Shown: piece by piece, positions 4,187-28,872 of the stretch | Position numbering within the stretch: position 1 is the stretch's first letter | Layout of the letters: each line of letters opens with the position of its first letter | From: Arthrobacter crystallopoietes BAB-32 | GTDB lineage: Bacteria > Actinomycetota > Actinomycetes > Actinomycetales > Micrococcaceae | Assembly (NCBI RefSeq): GCF_000328305.2 | Contig: NZ_ANPE02000098.1 | Location: forward strand, 1-33,563 | Direction of reading: 5' to 3' | Length of the DNA stretch: 33,563 bases | The notes under the pieces: generated by a model | The model's database searches: none | What the model was told of the DNA's origin: nothing | The model's input: only the letters and a program-made list of their open reading frames with translations | Made by a program: the position numbers and the translations under genes

Positions 4187-4277
4187 TTCAGGCTCCTTCC
4201 TGACCGTGAAGAGAGCCCGCGGCCGTCCGGGCCCGCCGAATGGCTGCGCCCATGGAACGACCGGAAGATTCTGCTTC

Positions 4278-4364
4278 TCCATCGGTCCTGGCGTTAGCAC
4301 CTTCCTCGAAACGAGGTGGTTGCTGCGGCGTCAACGAGCCAGGTCTCTCAGCCGCTCTGGATGG
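4278..4364 (-). promoter_or_regulatory. SAM-I (S-box) riboswitch upstream of the DmoA/DszA-like monooxygenase
   Basis: Read on the minus strand, the element runs from CCATCC to CGATGGA. It has P1 (CCATC/GATGG), the core GCGGCTGAGAGACCTGGCTC, GACGCCGCAGCAACC, then a short hairpin (ACCTCGTTTCGAGG) and GGTGCTAACGCCAGGACC. CCTGGC in the P2 loop region is complementary to GCCAGG near the 3' end, as in the SAM-I pseudoknot. At 87 nt it is the most compact of the four copies here. The aptamer ends about 92 nt before the start codon, leaving room for an expression platform. An AATAAT -10-like box lies at 4372-4377 just upstream; no good -35 is visible. Expected action: expression off when SAM is plentiful. 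Confidence 0.9.
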
Positions 4365-4429
4365 TTACTGAATTATTCCATCGCATCCGGCCGCGGTTCG
4401 TAAAACCGCATTGTCATACCGGGTAATCC

Positions 4430-4475: not shown

Positions 4476-5897
4476 CTATGCGGGCAGGCCGTCCCGCACC
4501 GGAACCCGCTCGGTGGCGGCAGCCGAGTTGGCTCCGAACGTCCCGCGGAAGCGTGCCGCCGGGTGCGTCGGCTCCAGGCGCGGCCCACGTCCGAAGAACT
4601 TTTCGCGCAGCGTGCCCGGCCGGTATTCGGTCTGGGCGAGCCCGCGCTTGCGCAGCTCGGGCAGCACTCCATCGATAAATTCGGTGTAGGAGCCCGGCAG
4701 GATCTGGTTCATCACGTTCACGCCGTCGATGCCCGCGTCCTGCCAGCGTTCCAGCTCGTCCACGATCTGTTCCGGGGTGCCGGCAATCTGCTGGGCCTTC
4801 GCCCGGTAGCGGGCCAGGTCTCCGACCGTCGGCTTGCCGCCGGGGACCGAGGCGATTGCCGCTTCCAGCACGCCCCTGGCACCCTCGGTGGACACGTCCC
4901 CCAATGGCGTGTCCAGCGGCAGGCCGCCCAGGTCGACGCCGATTCCGCCGCCAATGTGGGCGATGATCGCGTGCAGGTCGAGGTACTCGTCGTATTCGGC
5001 TTCCTTGCGGCGGACCTCGGCTTCCGTGCTGCCGACAATGAACGAGAGACCTGCGAAGATCTTTACGTCACCCGGGGTCCGGCCGGCTTCGGCTTCGAGC
5101 GCGCGGATGCCGGCGGCCTGCTTGCGCACGTAGTCGGTATGCGGGGCGAACAGGAAGGTCGCCTCTGCGTGTGTGGCGGCAAAGCGCCGGCCGCGCGTGG
5201 AACTGCCGGCTTGGAACAGGAACGGCGTGCGCTGCGGGCTGGGCGTGGCCAGGTGCGGGCCCTCAATCGAGTACCTCGTGCCCCGGTGGTGGATCTTGTT
5301 GACCTTGGCAGGGTCCGCGAAGATGCCGCGCTCCTTGTCGGCGAGCACCGCGTCGTCTTCCCAGGAGCCTTCCCAGAGCTTGTAGGCGGCTTCCACGTAC
5401 TCGTCCGCCCAGTCGTAGCGGTCGTCGTGGGCGGTCAGCCCGTCGGCGCCGAAGTTCCGGTGGGAATTCTCCAGCACGCTGGTGACGACGTTCCAGGCCG
5501 CACGACCACCGGAGATGTGGTCCAAGGTGGACATCTGGCGGGCCAGCTGGAAGGGATCGGACTGGATGACGGAACTCGTCATGGCCAGCCCGATCTCGCT
5601 CGTCACGGCGGCCAGGGCCGAGCACAGCACCAGCGGGTCATGTGCCGGAACCTGCATGCCCTTGCGGACCATCGAGGCCCAGCCACCCTCGTGGTTGCCG
5701 TAAAGGCCAACCACATCGGCAAAGAACATGTTGTCGAACTTGGCGTCCTCGAGCTGGCGAGCCAGGTCCGTCCACAGCGACAGCTCGTTGAAGCGGTGCT
5801 GCTGCGCCTGAGGGTGGCGCCACTGCCCGCCGAGAATGTGGCTGGGCGTGTTCATCAGGAAGCCGCTGAGCAGCAGCCGTGGCCGAGTGGCAGCCAT
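4476..5897 (-). CDS. NtaA/SnaA/DszA-family FMNH2-dependent monooxygenase
   Basis: A 473-residue luciferase-fold monooxygenase of the same broad family as the gene at 2780-4186 but clearly divergent from it. Visible marks: FLMNTPSHILGGQWRHP (residues 13-29), FFADVVGLYG, STLDHISGGRAAWNVVTS (123-140), HDDRYDWADEYVEAAYKLWE and PFLFQAGSSTRGRRFA. The ATG at 5897 follows an AAAGGAGGTG ribosome site, and its first base is the last base of the preceding gene's TGA (TGATG), so translation is probably coupled to the DszC/SfnC-like enzyme. It is the last gene of the six-gene SAM-riboswitch operon. Known relatives include DszA, SnaA, NtaA and the Bacillus enzymes CmoJ and YxeK, which act on modified cysteines; an S-substituted cysteine or sulfone is therefore plausible. 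The substrate is not determined by sequence. Confidence 0.88.
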   Translation of the reverse strand: MAATRPRLLLSGFLMNTPSHILGGQWRHPQAQQHRFNELSLWTDLARQLEDAKFDNMFFADVVGLYGNHEGGWASMVRKGMQVPAHDPLVLCSALAAVTSEIGLAMTSSVIQSDPFQLARQMSTLDHISGGRAAWNVVTSVLENSHRNFGADGLTAHDDRYDWADEYVEAAYKLWEGSWEDDAVLADKERGIFADPAKVNKIHHRGTRYSIEGPHLATPSPQRTPFLFQAGSSTRGRRFAATHAEATFLFAPHTDYVRKQAAGIRALEAEAGRTPGDVKIFAGLSFIVGSTEAEVRRKEAEYDEYLDLHAIIAHIGGGIGVDLGGLPLDTPLGDVSTEGARGVLEAAIASVPGGKPTVGDLARYRAKAQQIAGTPEQIVDELERWQDAGIDGVNVMNQILPGSYTEFIDGVLPELRKRGLAQTEYRPGTLREKFFGRGPRLEPTHPAARFRGTFGANSAAATERVPVRDGLPA

Positions 5898-7150
5898 CAG
5901 GCAGCACCTCCTTTGGTGTCTCCGCCTGCCGACGGAGCTTCGCCGATACTGTTCAGTCCCGTCGGCACGGTGCCGTTAATGTGGAAGTCGCCCACGGAGC
6001 GGGCCTTGAACGCTATCGGATTGTGCGTGGCAACCGTGCGTGCATTGCGCCAATGCCGGTCCAGCGCCTTGCCGCGGCTGGTGGCGGAAGCACCGGTGAC
6101 ATCGAAGAGTTCTCCGGTCGCTGCGAGGACCAGCCCGGGGACGGTCACGTGCGCCTTCTGCACCGCCAGTTCGGCGCGCAGGTAAGCCGCATCGGCATCG
6201 AGTGCGAGCTGTGCGTCGACAGCGGCGTCCAGGTCCCGTGCCGCCGCGGTGACCACGGCCTCGGCGGCATAGACCTTGGACGCGAGCAGTCCAACGTGTT
6301 CCTGGATCAGCGCGTCGTCGCGGAACAACTGGCCCTGGCCCGTGTTGAAGGTGCGGGTGCGGTGACGGACCAACCCGGATGCATCTCGCAGGGCGGCGCG
6401 GCCGATTCCTGCGAGTACCGCCAGCAGGCACATCTGGAAGAACGCCGGTTCCAGGGTGCTGGAAACCTTGCGCTGGATGATGTCCTCCTCGTCCACCTCG
6501 ACGTCGTCGAACACGGCAGTGCCGGTGCCGGTCAGCGGCTGCCCGAAGCCGTCCCAGTCATCCACAATGCGCACGCGCGTATCGTCGGCGCGGACCAGCG
6601 CGTACTGGCGGCCTTCCACGCCGTCGGTACTGGCCATAACTACCACCCAATCCGCAAAAATCGAGCCGGTGGTGTAGTACTTCTCCCCGTTCAGCAGCCA
6701 GCGCCCGCCCTCCTGGCGCAGCTTGGTCTGGGTGGTGCCCAGCGCATTGCCGCCGCGCTCGGTGGCCGCATTGCCGAAGATCTCCCCGGCAGCCACCCGC
6801 GGGAACCAGCGCGCCTGCAATTCGCGCGGCTGGAGGGCGATGGTCTCGACGAAGGAGAAGTGCGAGCGCAGCAGGTGGCTGATGTTGGAATCGGCCTCGG
6901 CCAGCTCGATGAGCAGGCGGAACAGGTGCTCGTGGCTGACCGGGTCGCCGCCGAATTCCGCCGGCAGGCGCAGCGTGGTGAAGCCGGCATCCTTCAGCCA
7001 GCCAATCTGCTCGAAGGGCAGGATGCGCTGCTGTTCGCGCTCAAGTGTTCCGGCGGCAATGCGCGCAAAGACGGGTCGGAAGCGCGCGGCGACGGCGGCA
7101 TAGCGGGCCTCCCCGGTCGCGGTCCCGGGTTCGGTGGCGGTGATGCTCAT
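5897..7150 (-). CDS. DszC/SfnC-like flavin monooxygenase (acyl-CoA dehydrogenase fold)
   Basis: About 417 residues with the acyl-CoA dehydrogenase fold: an N-terminal helical part with TLRLPAEFGG, a mid-domain with ATERGGNALGTTQTK and GEKYYTTGSIFADW, and a C-terminal helical bundle ending in LDRHWRNARTVATHNP. This pattern belongs to the branch that works as an FMNH2-dependent monooxygenase (DszC on dibenzothiophene, SfnC in sulfone use) rather than as a dehydrogenase. A histidine near residue 92, the serine of TTGS near 163 and the histidine of THNP near 375 plausibly match the DszC active-site residues I recall. The start at 7150 follows AAGGAAAC; the frame is open further upstream, but that stretch is the ATPase gene read out of frame. 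It lies 8 bp after the ATPase stop and overlaps the next gene by one base. It needs a flavin reductase not seen here. Confidence 0.88.
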   Translation of the reverse strand: MSITATEPGTATGEARYAAVAARFRPVFARIAAGTLEREQQRILPFEQIGWLKDAGFTTLRLPAEFGGDPVSHEHLFRLLIELAEADSNISHLLRSHFSFVETIALQPRELQARWFPRVAAGEIFGNAATERGGNALGTTQTKLRQEGGRWLLNGEKYYTTGSIFADWVVVMASTDGVEGRQYALVRADDTRVRIVDDWDGFGQPLTGTGTAVFDDVEVDEEDIIQRKVSSTLEPAFFQMCLLAVLAGIGRAALRDASGLVRHRTRTFNTGQGQLFRDDALIQEHVGLLASKVYAAEAVVTAAARDLDAAVDAQLALDADAAYLRAELAVQKAHVTVPGLVLAATGELFDVTGASATSRGKALDRHWRNARTVATHNPIAFKARSVGDFHINGTVPTGLNSIGEAPSAGGDTKGGAA

Positions 7151-12339: not shown

Positions 12340-12438
12340 GAAGGCTCCTCTCGGTCATTACCGAGGAACGCCATTTCACGCGGAGAGTCCGGCCACGCAC
12401 ACGGAGCGGGCAGGGACCAACGGGAAGATTTGGCTAAC

Positions 12439-12595
12439 TCCATCGGTCCTGGCAGGAGCACCCTACGGAGCATGTCCTACCGCGCTGCGCGGCCCTCGAA
12501 CATGTCCCTTGCTATCGGCGTGGATCCAGGGTGATCTCACGCGACCAGGGTTGCTGCAGCGTCATAGAGCCAGGTCTCTCAGCTGCTCGGGATGG
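12439..12595 (-). promoter_or_regulatory. SAM-I riboswitch heading the transporter-monooxygenase operon
   Basis: On the minus strand it begins CCATCCCGAGC, continues AGCTGAGAGACCTGGCTC and GACGCTGCAGCAACC, has a long variable region of about 90 nt, and closes with GGTGCTCCTGCCAGGACCG and ATGGA. P1 is CCATC/GATGG, and P2 shows compensated changes against the other copies (GCAGC/GCTGC instead of GCGGC/GCCGC), which is good evidence for a real RNA stem. About 100 nt separate the aptamer from the start codon. Just before the ribosome site there is a hairpin CTCGGT-AATG-ACCGAG whose flank CCTC could also pair with GAGG of the ribosome site. Expected action: repression when SAM is plentiful. Confidence 0.9.
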
Positions 12596-12683
12596 TTACG
12601 CGTTCCAGTGTCGCGGCGACGTCCGTCCGGATGAAAGAGGCGGCGTCACACTACGCAACCGGCCGACATATTTAGTCCCGGTG

Positions 12684-24670: not shown

Positions 24671-25087
24671 CTACAGGCCGAGGGCCGGGGCTTCGATCTT
24701 GGGGCAGGTGTCCATGACGACGTCGAGGCCAGCGGCTTTGGCGCGCTCTGCGGCGGCTTCGTCGATGACGCCGAGCTGCAGCCAGACGGCTTTTGCCCCA
24801 ACCTCGATGGCTTGGTCCACGACCGGGCCTACCTTGTGCGAGTTCACGAAGCAGTTCACCACGTCGATTCCGCCCGGGATGTCGGCCAGCTTCCGGTATC
24901 CCTGCTGGCCGTGCACATCTTCGCCCTTGAGGTTGACCGGGATGACTTCCATCCCGCGCTGGTCCATCATGTACCGCGAGACGCTGAGCGCCACGCGCCG
25001 CGGATTGTTGGACAGGCCGACGACGGCCCAGCGGGCCGGGGTGGTGAGCAGCCGCTTGATGACTTCCGGATCATTGAGGTGCGCCAT
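24671..25087 (-). CDS. CoA-binding domain protein (YccU-like)
   Basis: A 138-residue single-domain Rossmann-fold protein of the CoA-binding family. RWAVVGLSNNPRRVALSVSR near residue 19 is the nucleotide-binding turn, followed by EVIPVNLKGEDVHGQQGYRK, IDVVNCFVNSHKV, AVWLQLGVIDEAAAERAKAA and VVMDTCPKIE at the end, all family-typical. Known relatives bind CoA, but their cellular role is poorly defined. No good ribosome site precedes the ATG; TAGTCT lies about ten bases upstream, so transcription may be leaderless or nearly so. It is divergent from the MetE-like gene and appears to be a single-gene unit. Confidence 0.88.
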   Translation of the reverse strand: MAHLNDPEVIKRLLTTPARWAVVGLSNNPRRVALSVSRYMMDQRGMEVIPVNLKGEDVHGQQGYRKLADIPGGIDVVNCFVNSHKVGPVVDQAIEVGAKAVWLQLGVIDEAAAERAKAAGLDVVMDTCPKIEAPALGL

Positions 25088-25187: not shown

Positions 25188-25227
25188 ATTTGCCAAACCA
25201 GCACGAATGCCGTTGAGTATTGCCATC

Positions 25228-25334
25228 CCATCCCGAGCGGCCGAGAGACCTGGATCGACGACGCCGCAGCAACCGACCCTGACGCGTGCCCTAAGGGCAC
25301 TGGAACGGAACGGTGCTACTGCCAGGACCGATGG
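25228..25334 (+). promoter_or_regulatory. SAM-I riboswitch upstream of the MetE-like gene
   Basis: Begins CCATCCCGAGCGGC, continues CGAGAGACCTGG and GACGCCGCAGCAACC, has a hairpin region with GTGCCCTAAGGGCAC, then GGTGCTACTGCCAGGACCG and ATGG. P1 is CCATC/GATGG. The ribosome site AAAGGAAG starts directly at its 3' edge and the start codon follows 14 bases later, so there is no space for a separate terminator; control at translation is most likely. TTGCCA (25190-25195) and GAGTAT (25215-25220) are weak promoter candidates. Confidence 0.9.
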
Positions 25335-25348
25335 AAAGGAAGCCTGCC

Positions 25349-26560
25349 ATGGCCCTAAATACCGACCATATCCGTGTCACCCATGCCGGTTCGCTGCCGC
25401 GCACGCCGGAGCTGCTGGCGGCCAACGAGGCGAAGGAAGCCGACGGCATCACCGAGGAATTCCTTGGGCTGCTGGAGGCCTCCGTGGTGGACATTGTCCA
25501 GCGCCAGAAGGACCTGGGCATCGATATCCCGAACGACGGCGAGTACGGGCACACGATGTCCAGTTCCGTCGACTACGGGGCGTGGTGGAACTATTCGTTC
25601 GCGCGGCTGGGCGGGCTGGAGCCGACCGATGTGGACCGCTGGGCGGACACGGACGTACACCGGTCCTCGCCCGGCAATATCGTGCTGACCACCTTCACCG
25701 ACCGGCGCGACCGGGTGAAGTTCAACGAAGCCTACACGGACCCGTCGTCAGGCATCCTGGCGCACCGCAAGTCCGTCAAGCAGCCCAAGATCGCCGGGCC
25801 GCTGACCTACACCGGGCACGACCTGGTCGCCTCTGACGTAGCCAACCTGAAGAAGGGGCTGGCCGCGGCGGGGCTCGCGGAGGGATTCGTGGCGGCCCTC
25901 TCCCCCGGCTCGTGCGCCCGGATCGCCAACGACTACTACAAGACGGACGAGGAACTGGTCTACGCCTGCGCCGACGCGATGCGCGAGGAGTACAAGGAGA
26001 TCATCGATGCCGGGCTGACCGTCCAGCTGGATGACCCGTCGCTGGCCGAAAGCTGGGACCAGATCAATCCCGAGCCGGCGCTGGAGGACTACCTGAAGTT
26101 CATCCAGCTGCGGGTCGAGGCGACCAACTGGGCGCTGCGCGGCCTGCCGCCGGAGCAGATCCGGCTGCACGTGTGCTGGGGCTCCTGGCATGGCCCGCAC
26201 ACCACGGATATCCCGTTCGCGGACATCATTGGCTCGGTGCTGCAGATCAATGCCGGCGCCTACTCCTTCGAAGCAGCCAACGTCCGGCACGAGCACGAAT
26301 GGCGGGTCTGGGAGGAAACCAAGCTGCCCGAGGGCAAGGCCATCATCCCCGGAGTCGTGTCGCACGCGACCAACGTGGTGGAGCATCCGGAGCTGGTCGC
26401 GGACCGGATCGGACGCTTCGCCAAGCTGGTGGGCCGGGAATCGGTCATCGCTTCCACGGACTGCGGGCTGGGAGGACGGGTGCATCCGCAGATCGCCCTC
26501 GCCAAGTTGGAGGCCTTGGGCGAAGGCGCGCGGATTGCTACCCGCCGGCTCTGGCCCTAG
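25349..26560 (+). CDS. Stand-alone MetE-like (cobalamin-independent methionine synthase C-domain type) methyltransferase
   Basis: A 403-residue protein matching only the catalytic C-terminal barrel of MetE, which methylates homocysteine to methionine; the N-terminal folate-binding half of full-length MetE is absent. It opens with RVTHAGSLPRTPELL. All four zinc ligands known from E. coli MetE have counterparts: the HVC of LHVCWGSWHGPH, the glutamate in SFEAAN and the cysteine in STDCGLGGR. The start at 25349 follows AAAGGAAG; upstream in-frame ATGs lie inside the riboswitch. Control by SAM fits a methionine-forming role. The methyl donor may not be methyl-folate, as short core-MetE proteins are reported to use other donors; thiol transfer to other substrates is an alternative. 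The stop overlaps the convergent hydrolase stop. Confidence 0.88.
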   Translation: MALNTDHIRVTHAGSLPRTPELLAANEAKEADGITEEFLGLLEASVVDIVQRQKDLGIDIPNDGEYGHTMSSSVDYGAWWNYSFARLGGLEPTDVDRWADTDVHRSSPGNIVLTTFTDRRDRVKFNEAYTDPSSGILAHRKSVKQPKIAGPLTYTGHDLVASDVANLKKGLAAAGLAEGFVAALSPGSCARIANDYYKTDEELVYACADAMREEYKEIIDAGLTVQLDDPSLAESWDQINPEPALEDYLKFIQLRVEATNWALRGLPPEQIRLHVCWGSWHGPHTTDIPFADIIGSVLQINAGAYSFEAANVRHEHEWRVWEETKLPEGKAIIPGVVSHATNVVEHPELVADRIGRFAKLVGRESVIASTDCGLGGRVHPQIALAKLEALGEGARIATRRLWP

Positions 26561-28696: not shown

Positions 28697-28704
28697 GGGC
28701 TTGA

Positions 28705-28863
28705 CCATCCCGAGCGGCTGAGAGACCTGGCTCTACGACGCCGCAGCAACCCTGGTCGCCGCCAGCCTTCCCTGGCCGCCGGCGATATCGAGGTTCACCG
28801 CCGCGGGCCGGTGCAATTGCACCGAAGGCGTGATCCGTAGGGTGCTACTGCCAGGATCGATGG
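28705..28863 (+). promoter_or_regulatory. SAM-I riboswitch upstream of the ssuBAC operon
   Basis: Begins CCATCCCGAGCGGCTGAG, continues AGACCTGGCTC and GACGCCGCAGCAACC, has a long variable arm with a GGTGCAATTGCACC hairpin, and ends GGTGCTACTGCCAGGATCG and ATGG. P1 is CCATC (28705-28709) with GATGG (28859-28863). The only visible ribosome site of ssuB, GGAG at 28862-28865, overlaps the 3' strand of P1. SAM binding, which stabilises P1, should therefore hide the ribosome site directly. Confidence 0.92.
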
Positions 28864-28872
28864 AGTGATTTC

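Follow-up and report, generated by a model that had tools for sequence, protein, structure and literature searches.

We lean towards reading a short MetE-like gene of Arthrobacter crystallopoietes BAB-32 as a folate-independent methionine synthase, that is, a zinc-dependent homocysteine methyltransferase that would consist of the MetE barrel alone. The gene lies in a stretch of 33,563 nucleotides that was analysed whole and is called the window below. It is under SAM control in many actinobacteria, some of which have no other recognisable synthase, and probably makes methionine from a methyl source other than methyl-folate. A search of titles and abstract openings found, among the matches listed, no description of this actinobacterial family. 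The available part of Price 2021 (PMC7857596) leaves open the methyl donor of the core methionine synthases of aerobes (MesX chemistry). As the only recognisable synthase in genomes where no methylene-tetrahydrofolate (methylene-THF) reductase was found, the gene offers a direct genetic test of that question. If the reading is true, predictions from actinobacterial genomes that a strain is a methionine auxotroph or depends on B12 would have to be corrected.

Gene anatomy, conserved residues and leader

Meth_synt_2 (PF01717, residues 171-381) is the sole Pfam domain of the protein (Table 1). The N-terminal PF08267 was not found at E 1e-5, and the two-domain layout of MetE (PF08267 plus PF01717) is absent. 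The initial annotation, which had seen a core-only MetE with four zinc ligands, was right on this point: H274, C276, E308 and C372 align with H641, C643, E665 and C726 of E. coli MetE, the E. coli numbering being that of the available part of Price 2021 (PMC7857596). The closest named relatives of the protein are from Arthrobacter, and its own genome (4.35 Mb) holds a single match to it. The AlphaFold2 model has a mean pLDDT of 87.7, and the best PDB matches of the predicted fold are MetE (1xpg, E 9.9e-19) and MesD (3rpd, TM 0.79 by target length). Seven NCBIfam methionine synthase models match the protein, all with scores far under their cut-offs.

Conservation was followed in an alignment of 78 rows, made of the window protein and 77 orthologues out of 80 fetched loci; three loci with short reading frames (L054, L057, L073) were dropped from the residue count and from the trees. 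None of the seven residues, four zinc ligands and three that bind homocysteine, varies in any row. All seven are likewise retained in more distant relatives (34-39% identity), yet several of these sit in catabolic-looking operons, so that these residues are no proof of methionine synthesis. The family also carries an insertion with the motif D[YF]GAWW, of which D75, G77, A78, W79 and W80 are invariant across the 34 rows of alignment A3. It is gapped in the broader-clan, MesD and MetE rows of the alignment, among the rows displayed, and it overlaps residues 67-78, which are poorly modelled (pLDDT under 50). A donor-site role for the insertion would be a guess.

Table 1. Features of the core gene, its leader and the other SAM-I matches of the window
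Feature	Position	Strand	Basis
Core MetE-like methyltransferase P0001, 403 aa	25349..26560 (start ATG at 25349, stop codon ends 26560)	+	ORF, Pfam, own-genome match
SAM-I riboswitch aptamer (RF00162)	25225..25337	+	covariance match 44.2 bits, E 3.5e-9 in a search of 271 bases
P1 helix 5' strand (CCAUC)	25228..25232	+	sequence and Rfam alignment, inferred pairing
P1 helix 3' strand (GAUGG), overlaps ribosome-binding site	25330..25334	+	inferred pairing
Putative ribosome-binding site GGAAAGGA, first two G within P1	25333..25340	+	read from sequence
Ser15, homocysteine carboxylate binding (E. coli S433)	25391..25393	+	78/78 rows, predicted role
Glu65, homocysteine amino binding (E. coli E484)	25541..25543	+	78/78 rows, predicted role
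Asp75-Trp80, motif D[YF]GAWW in family insertion	25571..25588	+	34/34 rows of alignment A3
Asp228, homocysteine amino binding (E. coli D599)	26030..26032	+	78/78 rows, predicted role
His274 and Cys276, zinc ligands	26168..26176	+	78/78 rows
Glu308, zinc ligand	26270..26272	+	78/78 rows
Cys372, zinc ligand	26462..26464	+	78/78 rows
SAM-I match before oligopeptide-type importer	12437-12598	-	genome search
SAM-I match before second LLM monooxygenase	4276-4367	-	genome search
SAM-I match before NMT1-type importer	28702-28866	+	genome search

The gene is preceded by a predicted SAM-I riboswitch, placed identically by the own-genome search. Its score falls 0.2 bits short of the gathering score of 44.4, and it is therefore missing from a gathering-level scan of the window. 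The free energy of the leader (25228-25348) is no lower than that of shuffled sequences (z -0.52), which makes folding uninformative and leaves the covariance match and conservation as the evidence. The leader is indeed kept at 45 of 80 related loci, and the tie between expression and SAM that the initial annotation had proposed is, to judge from these matches, likely. This count comes from model R1, trained on 26 leaders (the window and 25 loci), and rests mostly on sequence, since the RNAalifold structure behind the model missed P1. It comprises the 25 training rows and 20 others, one of them marginal (L024, E 0.0095); 43 matches lie directly upstream of the gene and two upstream of a tandem pair. 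The window leader, itself a training row, scores 109.1 bits.

Rfam models were applied to 27 of the 80 loci. They place RF00162 directly upstream at or above the gathering score in six of the 14 loci of one set (47.6-59.3 bits), and under it, at 39-44 bits, in five of the six loci of another. In two Arthrobacter, a SAM-IV match takes its place directly upstream of the core gene (L036, 4859-4982, 65.3 bits; L040, 4861-4985, 64.1 bits), apparently a switch of riboswitch class, with the same ligand, inside one gene family. No SAM riboswitch was found at 33 of the 80 loci, the SAM-I model having been run on all and the other classes on 11 of the 33. Among Arthrobacter relatives, the leader seems shortened or decayed in L004, L005, L008, L020, L023 and L024, with a weak riboswitch match or none. 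In A. cheniae (L073, features at 4506-4631 - and 4926-6239 +), the core gene is in two pieces and a SAM-I-type leader persists upstream; a SAM-IV match lies nearby on the opposite strand, and that genome has a canonical metE.

The overlap of P1 with the putative ribosome-binding site, which is retained in most of the 26 aligned leaders, suggests control of translation. With SAM plentiful, the aptamer would close P1, hide part of the ribosome-binding site and turn translation off; when SAM falls, the core enzyme would be made. It would bind homocysteine through S15, E65 and D228, activate its thiol by zinc held on H274, C276, E308 and C372, and take the methyl group from a donor other than 5-methyl-THF. 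While the anatomy of the gene, the conservation of its residues and riboswitch and its phyletic distribution are observed, we infer the enzyme activity, the translational mode and the independence from methyl-folate from sequence comparison.

Phyletic pattern and gene neighbourhoods

In the window genome, metF-metE stands behind a SAM-I riboswitch, metE being apparently split over two contigs; a MetH domain, PF02574 and MesX (DUF1852, present in two of 51 genomes searched) were not found there. The core gene is therefore a second synthase candidate in this genome, and the core enzyme would work alongside metF-metE, while certain relatives would depend on it as their sole methionine synthase. 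A second methylene-THF reductase homologue, of a divergent type, lies on another contig (C248:19149-19988). At least six SAM-I matches occur in the genome, from 150 scored out of 320 first-look candidates; three exceed the gathering score, and the 33.5 kb contig of the window contains four of the six. Behind the oligopeptide-type importer match, the run of genes extends to an SfnB-like gene and an LLM monooxygenase, and the sixth match precedes SfnG. The organosulfur genes of the window do share SAM riboswitch control with the core gene.

Other synthases were sought in 50 genomes, picked from the 80 loci for taxonomic spread before the synthase searches; all carry the core gene, so that the sample has no comparison group free of it. 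The MetE N-domain is present in 40 of them, as just a 42-residue fragment in one (G065). Among the ten others, two have the MetH activation domain, and the same two and Tersicoccus have the homocysteine-binding PF02574. In seven of the 50 genomes, the MetE N-domain, the MetH activation domain, PF02574 and MesX were all not found, and the single PF01717 gene of each is the core gene. These sole-candidate genomes are those of Arthrobacter zhaoxinii, A. yangruifuii, A. luteolus, Arthrobacter APC 3897 and Arthrobacter ATA002 (whose record is titled complete genome), together with Glaciihabitans tibetensis and Varibaculum cambriense. A SAM riboswitch precedes the core gene in five of the seven (L036, L040, L066, L068, L074); none was found before it in Glaciihabitans and Varibaculum.

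All seven retain a nearly full-length MetX homologue scoring 376-425 bits, against a model cut-off of 500 bits that no genome reached, controls included. A MetY-type sulfhydrylase adjoins MetX in each, metY being broken into two frames in ATA002; an Rfam scan of nine metX loci gave no riboswitch. The MetF-type PF02219 is absent in five and weak in two. A profile of the divergent reductase, A2, matches A. zhaoxinii, A. yangruifuii and A. luteolus and not the other four; built partly from two of the seven genomes, it matches those by construction. With PF02219 and the divergent actinobacterial profile, no methylene-THF reductase was found in APC 3897, ATA002, Glaciihabitans tibetensis and Varibaculum cambriense. 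Divergent reductase homologues with weak PF02219 scores occur in many of the actinobacterial genomes checked (L174-L179, L187).

Folate independence is likely, judging from gene absence in subclades other than that of the window protein. Its own subclade contains none of the seven sole-candidate members, which all fall in neighbouring ones; there, Tersicoccus lacks the MetE and MetH domains but possesses a homocysteine methyltransferase with PF02574, and MetH occurs in Piscicoccus and Agilicoccus. The seven strains may be methionine auxotrophs: a literature search found no growth data for them among the matches listed. Draft genomes can miss metabolic genes.

Around the core gene, no partner conserved beside it across subclades was found in the neighbourhood search, in which the neighbour count omits L038, L063, L069, L071 and L073, where the gene caller missed the core gene. 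The neighbours of the window that recur in relatives are a CoA-binding gene (24671-25087) and one transporter cluster only. A conserved 230-residue protein without Pfam match stands directly downstream in 24 Arthrobacter-type loci (one member examined), a purA cluster one or two genes upstream in 21 loci and an fba cluster at most four genes downstream in 19 (Pfam was run on one member of each). In 16 loci, the 5 kb around the core gene include a metZ-type cluster, whose L033 member was named by NCBIfam. An acyl-CoA dehydrogenase follows closely on the core gene in L068 and L074 and, in eight Sinomonas loci, precedes it by one or two genes; none was seen elsewhere (two members overall were named by Pfam). 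Five Kocuria loci (L034, L035, L037, L053, L055) carry tandem copies, 63-69% identical within a locus, which both keep all seven residues and stand behind one SAM-I leader.

The methyl donor and rival explanations

The gene could encode an accessory methionine synthase that dispenses with the N-terminal domain and uses 5-methyl-THF from metF or the divergent reductase, which we hold to be unlikely. The SAM-controlled metF-metE and the second reductase homologue of the window genome agree with it, as do the reductase homologues of either type in 14 of 18 genomes checked and the order in Rhodococcus PD04, where the core gene follows metE after 29 bases. The core protein has, however, no folate domain, and four of the seven sole-candidate genomes yielded no reductase of either type. 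Somewhat more doubtful is a salvage methyltransferase that would act only when its substrates are present, moving methyl groups from methanethiol, S-methyl-cysteine, DMSP- or methylthio-compounds to homocysteine. SAM control is common to the core gene and to the organosulfur uptake and oxygenase genes of the window, the SfnG gene is likewise behind a SAM riboswitch, and the core gene accompanies a MetE N-domain in 40 of the 50 genomes; these facts would suit such a role. The initial annotation had in the same spirit imagined methyl groups released by the neighbouring organosulfur modules, a view that finds no support: these modules do not recur within 5 kb of the core gene in the relatives examined, and purA and fba are nearby instead in many Arthrobacter loci. 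The same observations count against the salvage reading. Organosulfur monooxygenases of this kind release formaldehyde, not a transferable methyl group.

That the protein acts on another thiol or substrate, in the manner of epoxyalkane:coenzyme M transferase (EaCoMT), and is not a methionine synthase, seems to us the least probable of the three. Broader-clan members at 34-39% identity lie in SDR/cupin/RraA or dioxygenase operons with the same residues kept, which is what one would expect of it. The presence of two classes of SAM riboswitch before the core gene family argues the other way, as do the EaCoMT and XecA rows, in which Asn replaces S15 and Lys or Arg replaces E65 and which stand apart at 100/100, at a split where long branches meet. 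A folate-independent synthase, which the initial annotation had put forward as a possibility, is thus the reading we prefer; residues, SAM-I and SAM-IV leaders and sole-candidate genomes favour it and do not prove it. The retained MetX and MetY homologues, the metZ-type neighbours, the gene order in Rhodococcus PD04 and the predicted fold also speak for it.

One step further, and tentatively, for we think it a little less probable than its contrary, this may be a fifth family of core methionine synthases: actinobacterial, marked by the D[YF]GAWW insertion, often under SAM-I or SAM-IV control, working without methyl-folate, MetH or MesX, using a new donor or partner, and free of a MesD-like need for oxygen. 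Varibaculum, a sole-candidate host, is an anaerobe, and the fifth family would for this reason not share the oxygen need of MesD.

Comparison with known systems

A maximum-likelihood tree of 53 rows, including 33 of the 77 orthologues and leaving out Paracocc, separates the family, together with distant haloarchaeal, roseobacterial and other relatives, from EaCoMT, MesD, split MetE and MetE by a split supported at 100/100; the tree program warns that long branches meet at this split, which makes the finer order unsure. The placement suggested in the initial annotation is thereby obtained in part, relative to EaCoMT, MesD and MetE, and the clustering with epoxyalkane:thiol transferases that it named as a refutation is seen neither in the residues nor in the tree. 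A quick tree of 87 rows has several subclades, the window protein falling in one of 31 rows (SH-aLRT 93) that holds most Arthrobacter and Pseudarthrobacter loci. Three contigs with the core gene (L072, L043, L044), filed under Vibrio cholerae, Sporosarcina and Acidobacteria, are probably contamination or misbinning, since their GC content is 61-66% and their kin are actinobacterial. A likely catabolic MetE-like branch is seen among the distant relatives L157, L160, L159 and L170, whose operons recur and hold either SDR, cupin, alpha/beta hydrolase and RraA genes or genes for 2-oxoglutarate and phytanoyl-CoA dioxygenases.

Epoxyalkane:coenzyme M transferase (XecA, EtnE) belongs to the same superfamily and has the same zinc ligands, but it is 22-27% identical to the core protein, two homocysteine residues are replaced and it forms a separate clade. 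This identity is ruled out by the residues at the S433 and E484 positions and by that clade. The rows compared are XecA of Xanthobacter Py2, annotated as 2-hydroxypropyl-CoM lyase, and proteins of Mycolicibacterium NBB4 and Nocardioides JS614, which we take to be EaCoMT from their alkene monooxygenase neighbours.

MesD, which with MesX is the folate-independent synthase of aerobes (Price 2021), is also a single MetE-type barrel without the folate domain and has the zinc and homocysteine residues in common with the core protein, but the two are 25-27% identical over about half their length. A DUF1852-linked MesD reaches 701 bits on PRK09121, whereas the core protein has 60.4 for a cut-off of 392; this score and the absence of MesX rule out a MesD identity.

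Two traits general to core synthases are found in the present family: a MetE catalytic domain without the folate N-domain, and conserved zinc and homocysteine residues. A third, the making of methionine without MetF or methyl-THF, may hold in the four genomes where it is the sole candidate and no reductase was found. Its hosts are mainly aerobic actinobacteria. MesA, MesB and MesC, predicted to use the corrinoid proteins of anaerobes according to the available part of Price 2021 (PMC7857596), likewise have the core barrel without the folate domain; the comparison with them covered NCBIfam models, and the scores of those matched are all far below cut-off. A MetE-like core protein of Phaeobacter, comparable to the window family by its description, speaks against the preferred reading. 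In the available part of PMC12366255, it has no role in the DMSP-driven shortening of the lag phase, and the residual growth of a bmt mutant is ascribed to a possible second synthase. The same strain is reported auxotrophic once its split MetH-type genes are lost (PMC12478193, available part).

YxjG/YxjH of Firmicutes are, like the present family, short MetE-like genes under methionine-responsive RNA control; PRK06233 gives the core protein 41 bits against a cut-off of 576. We take this model to cover YxjG/H. In B. subtilis, yxjG/yxjH is preceded by an S-box. Elsewhere, yxjH is placed under a Met T-box in the available part of PMC6004538. Finally, canonical B12-independent MetE has the catalytic fold and the zinc and homocysteine residues in common with the core protein, which is about 24-25% identical to its catalytic half and lacks its N-terminal folate half.
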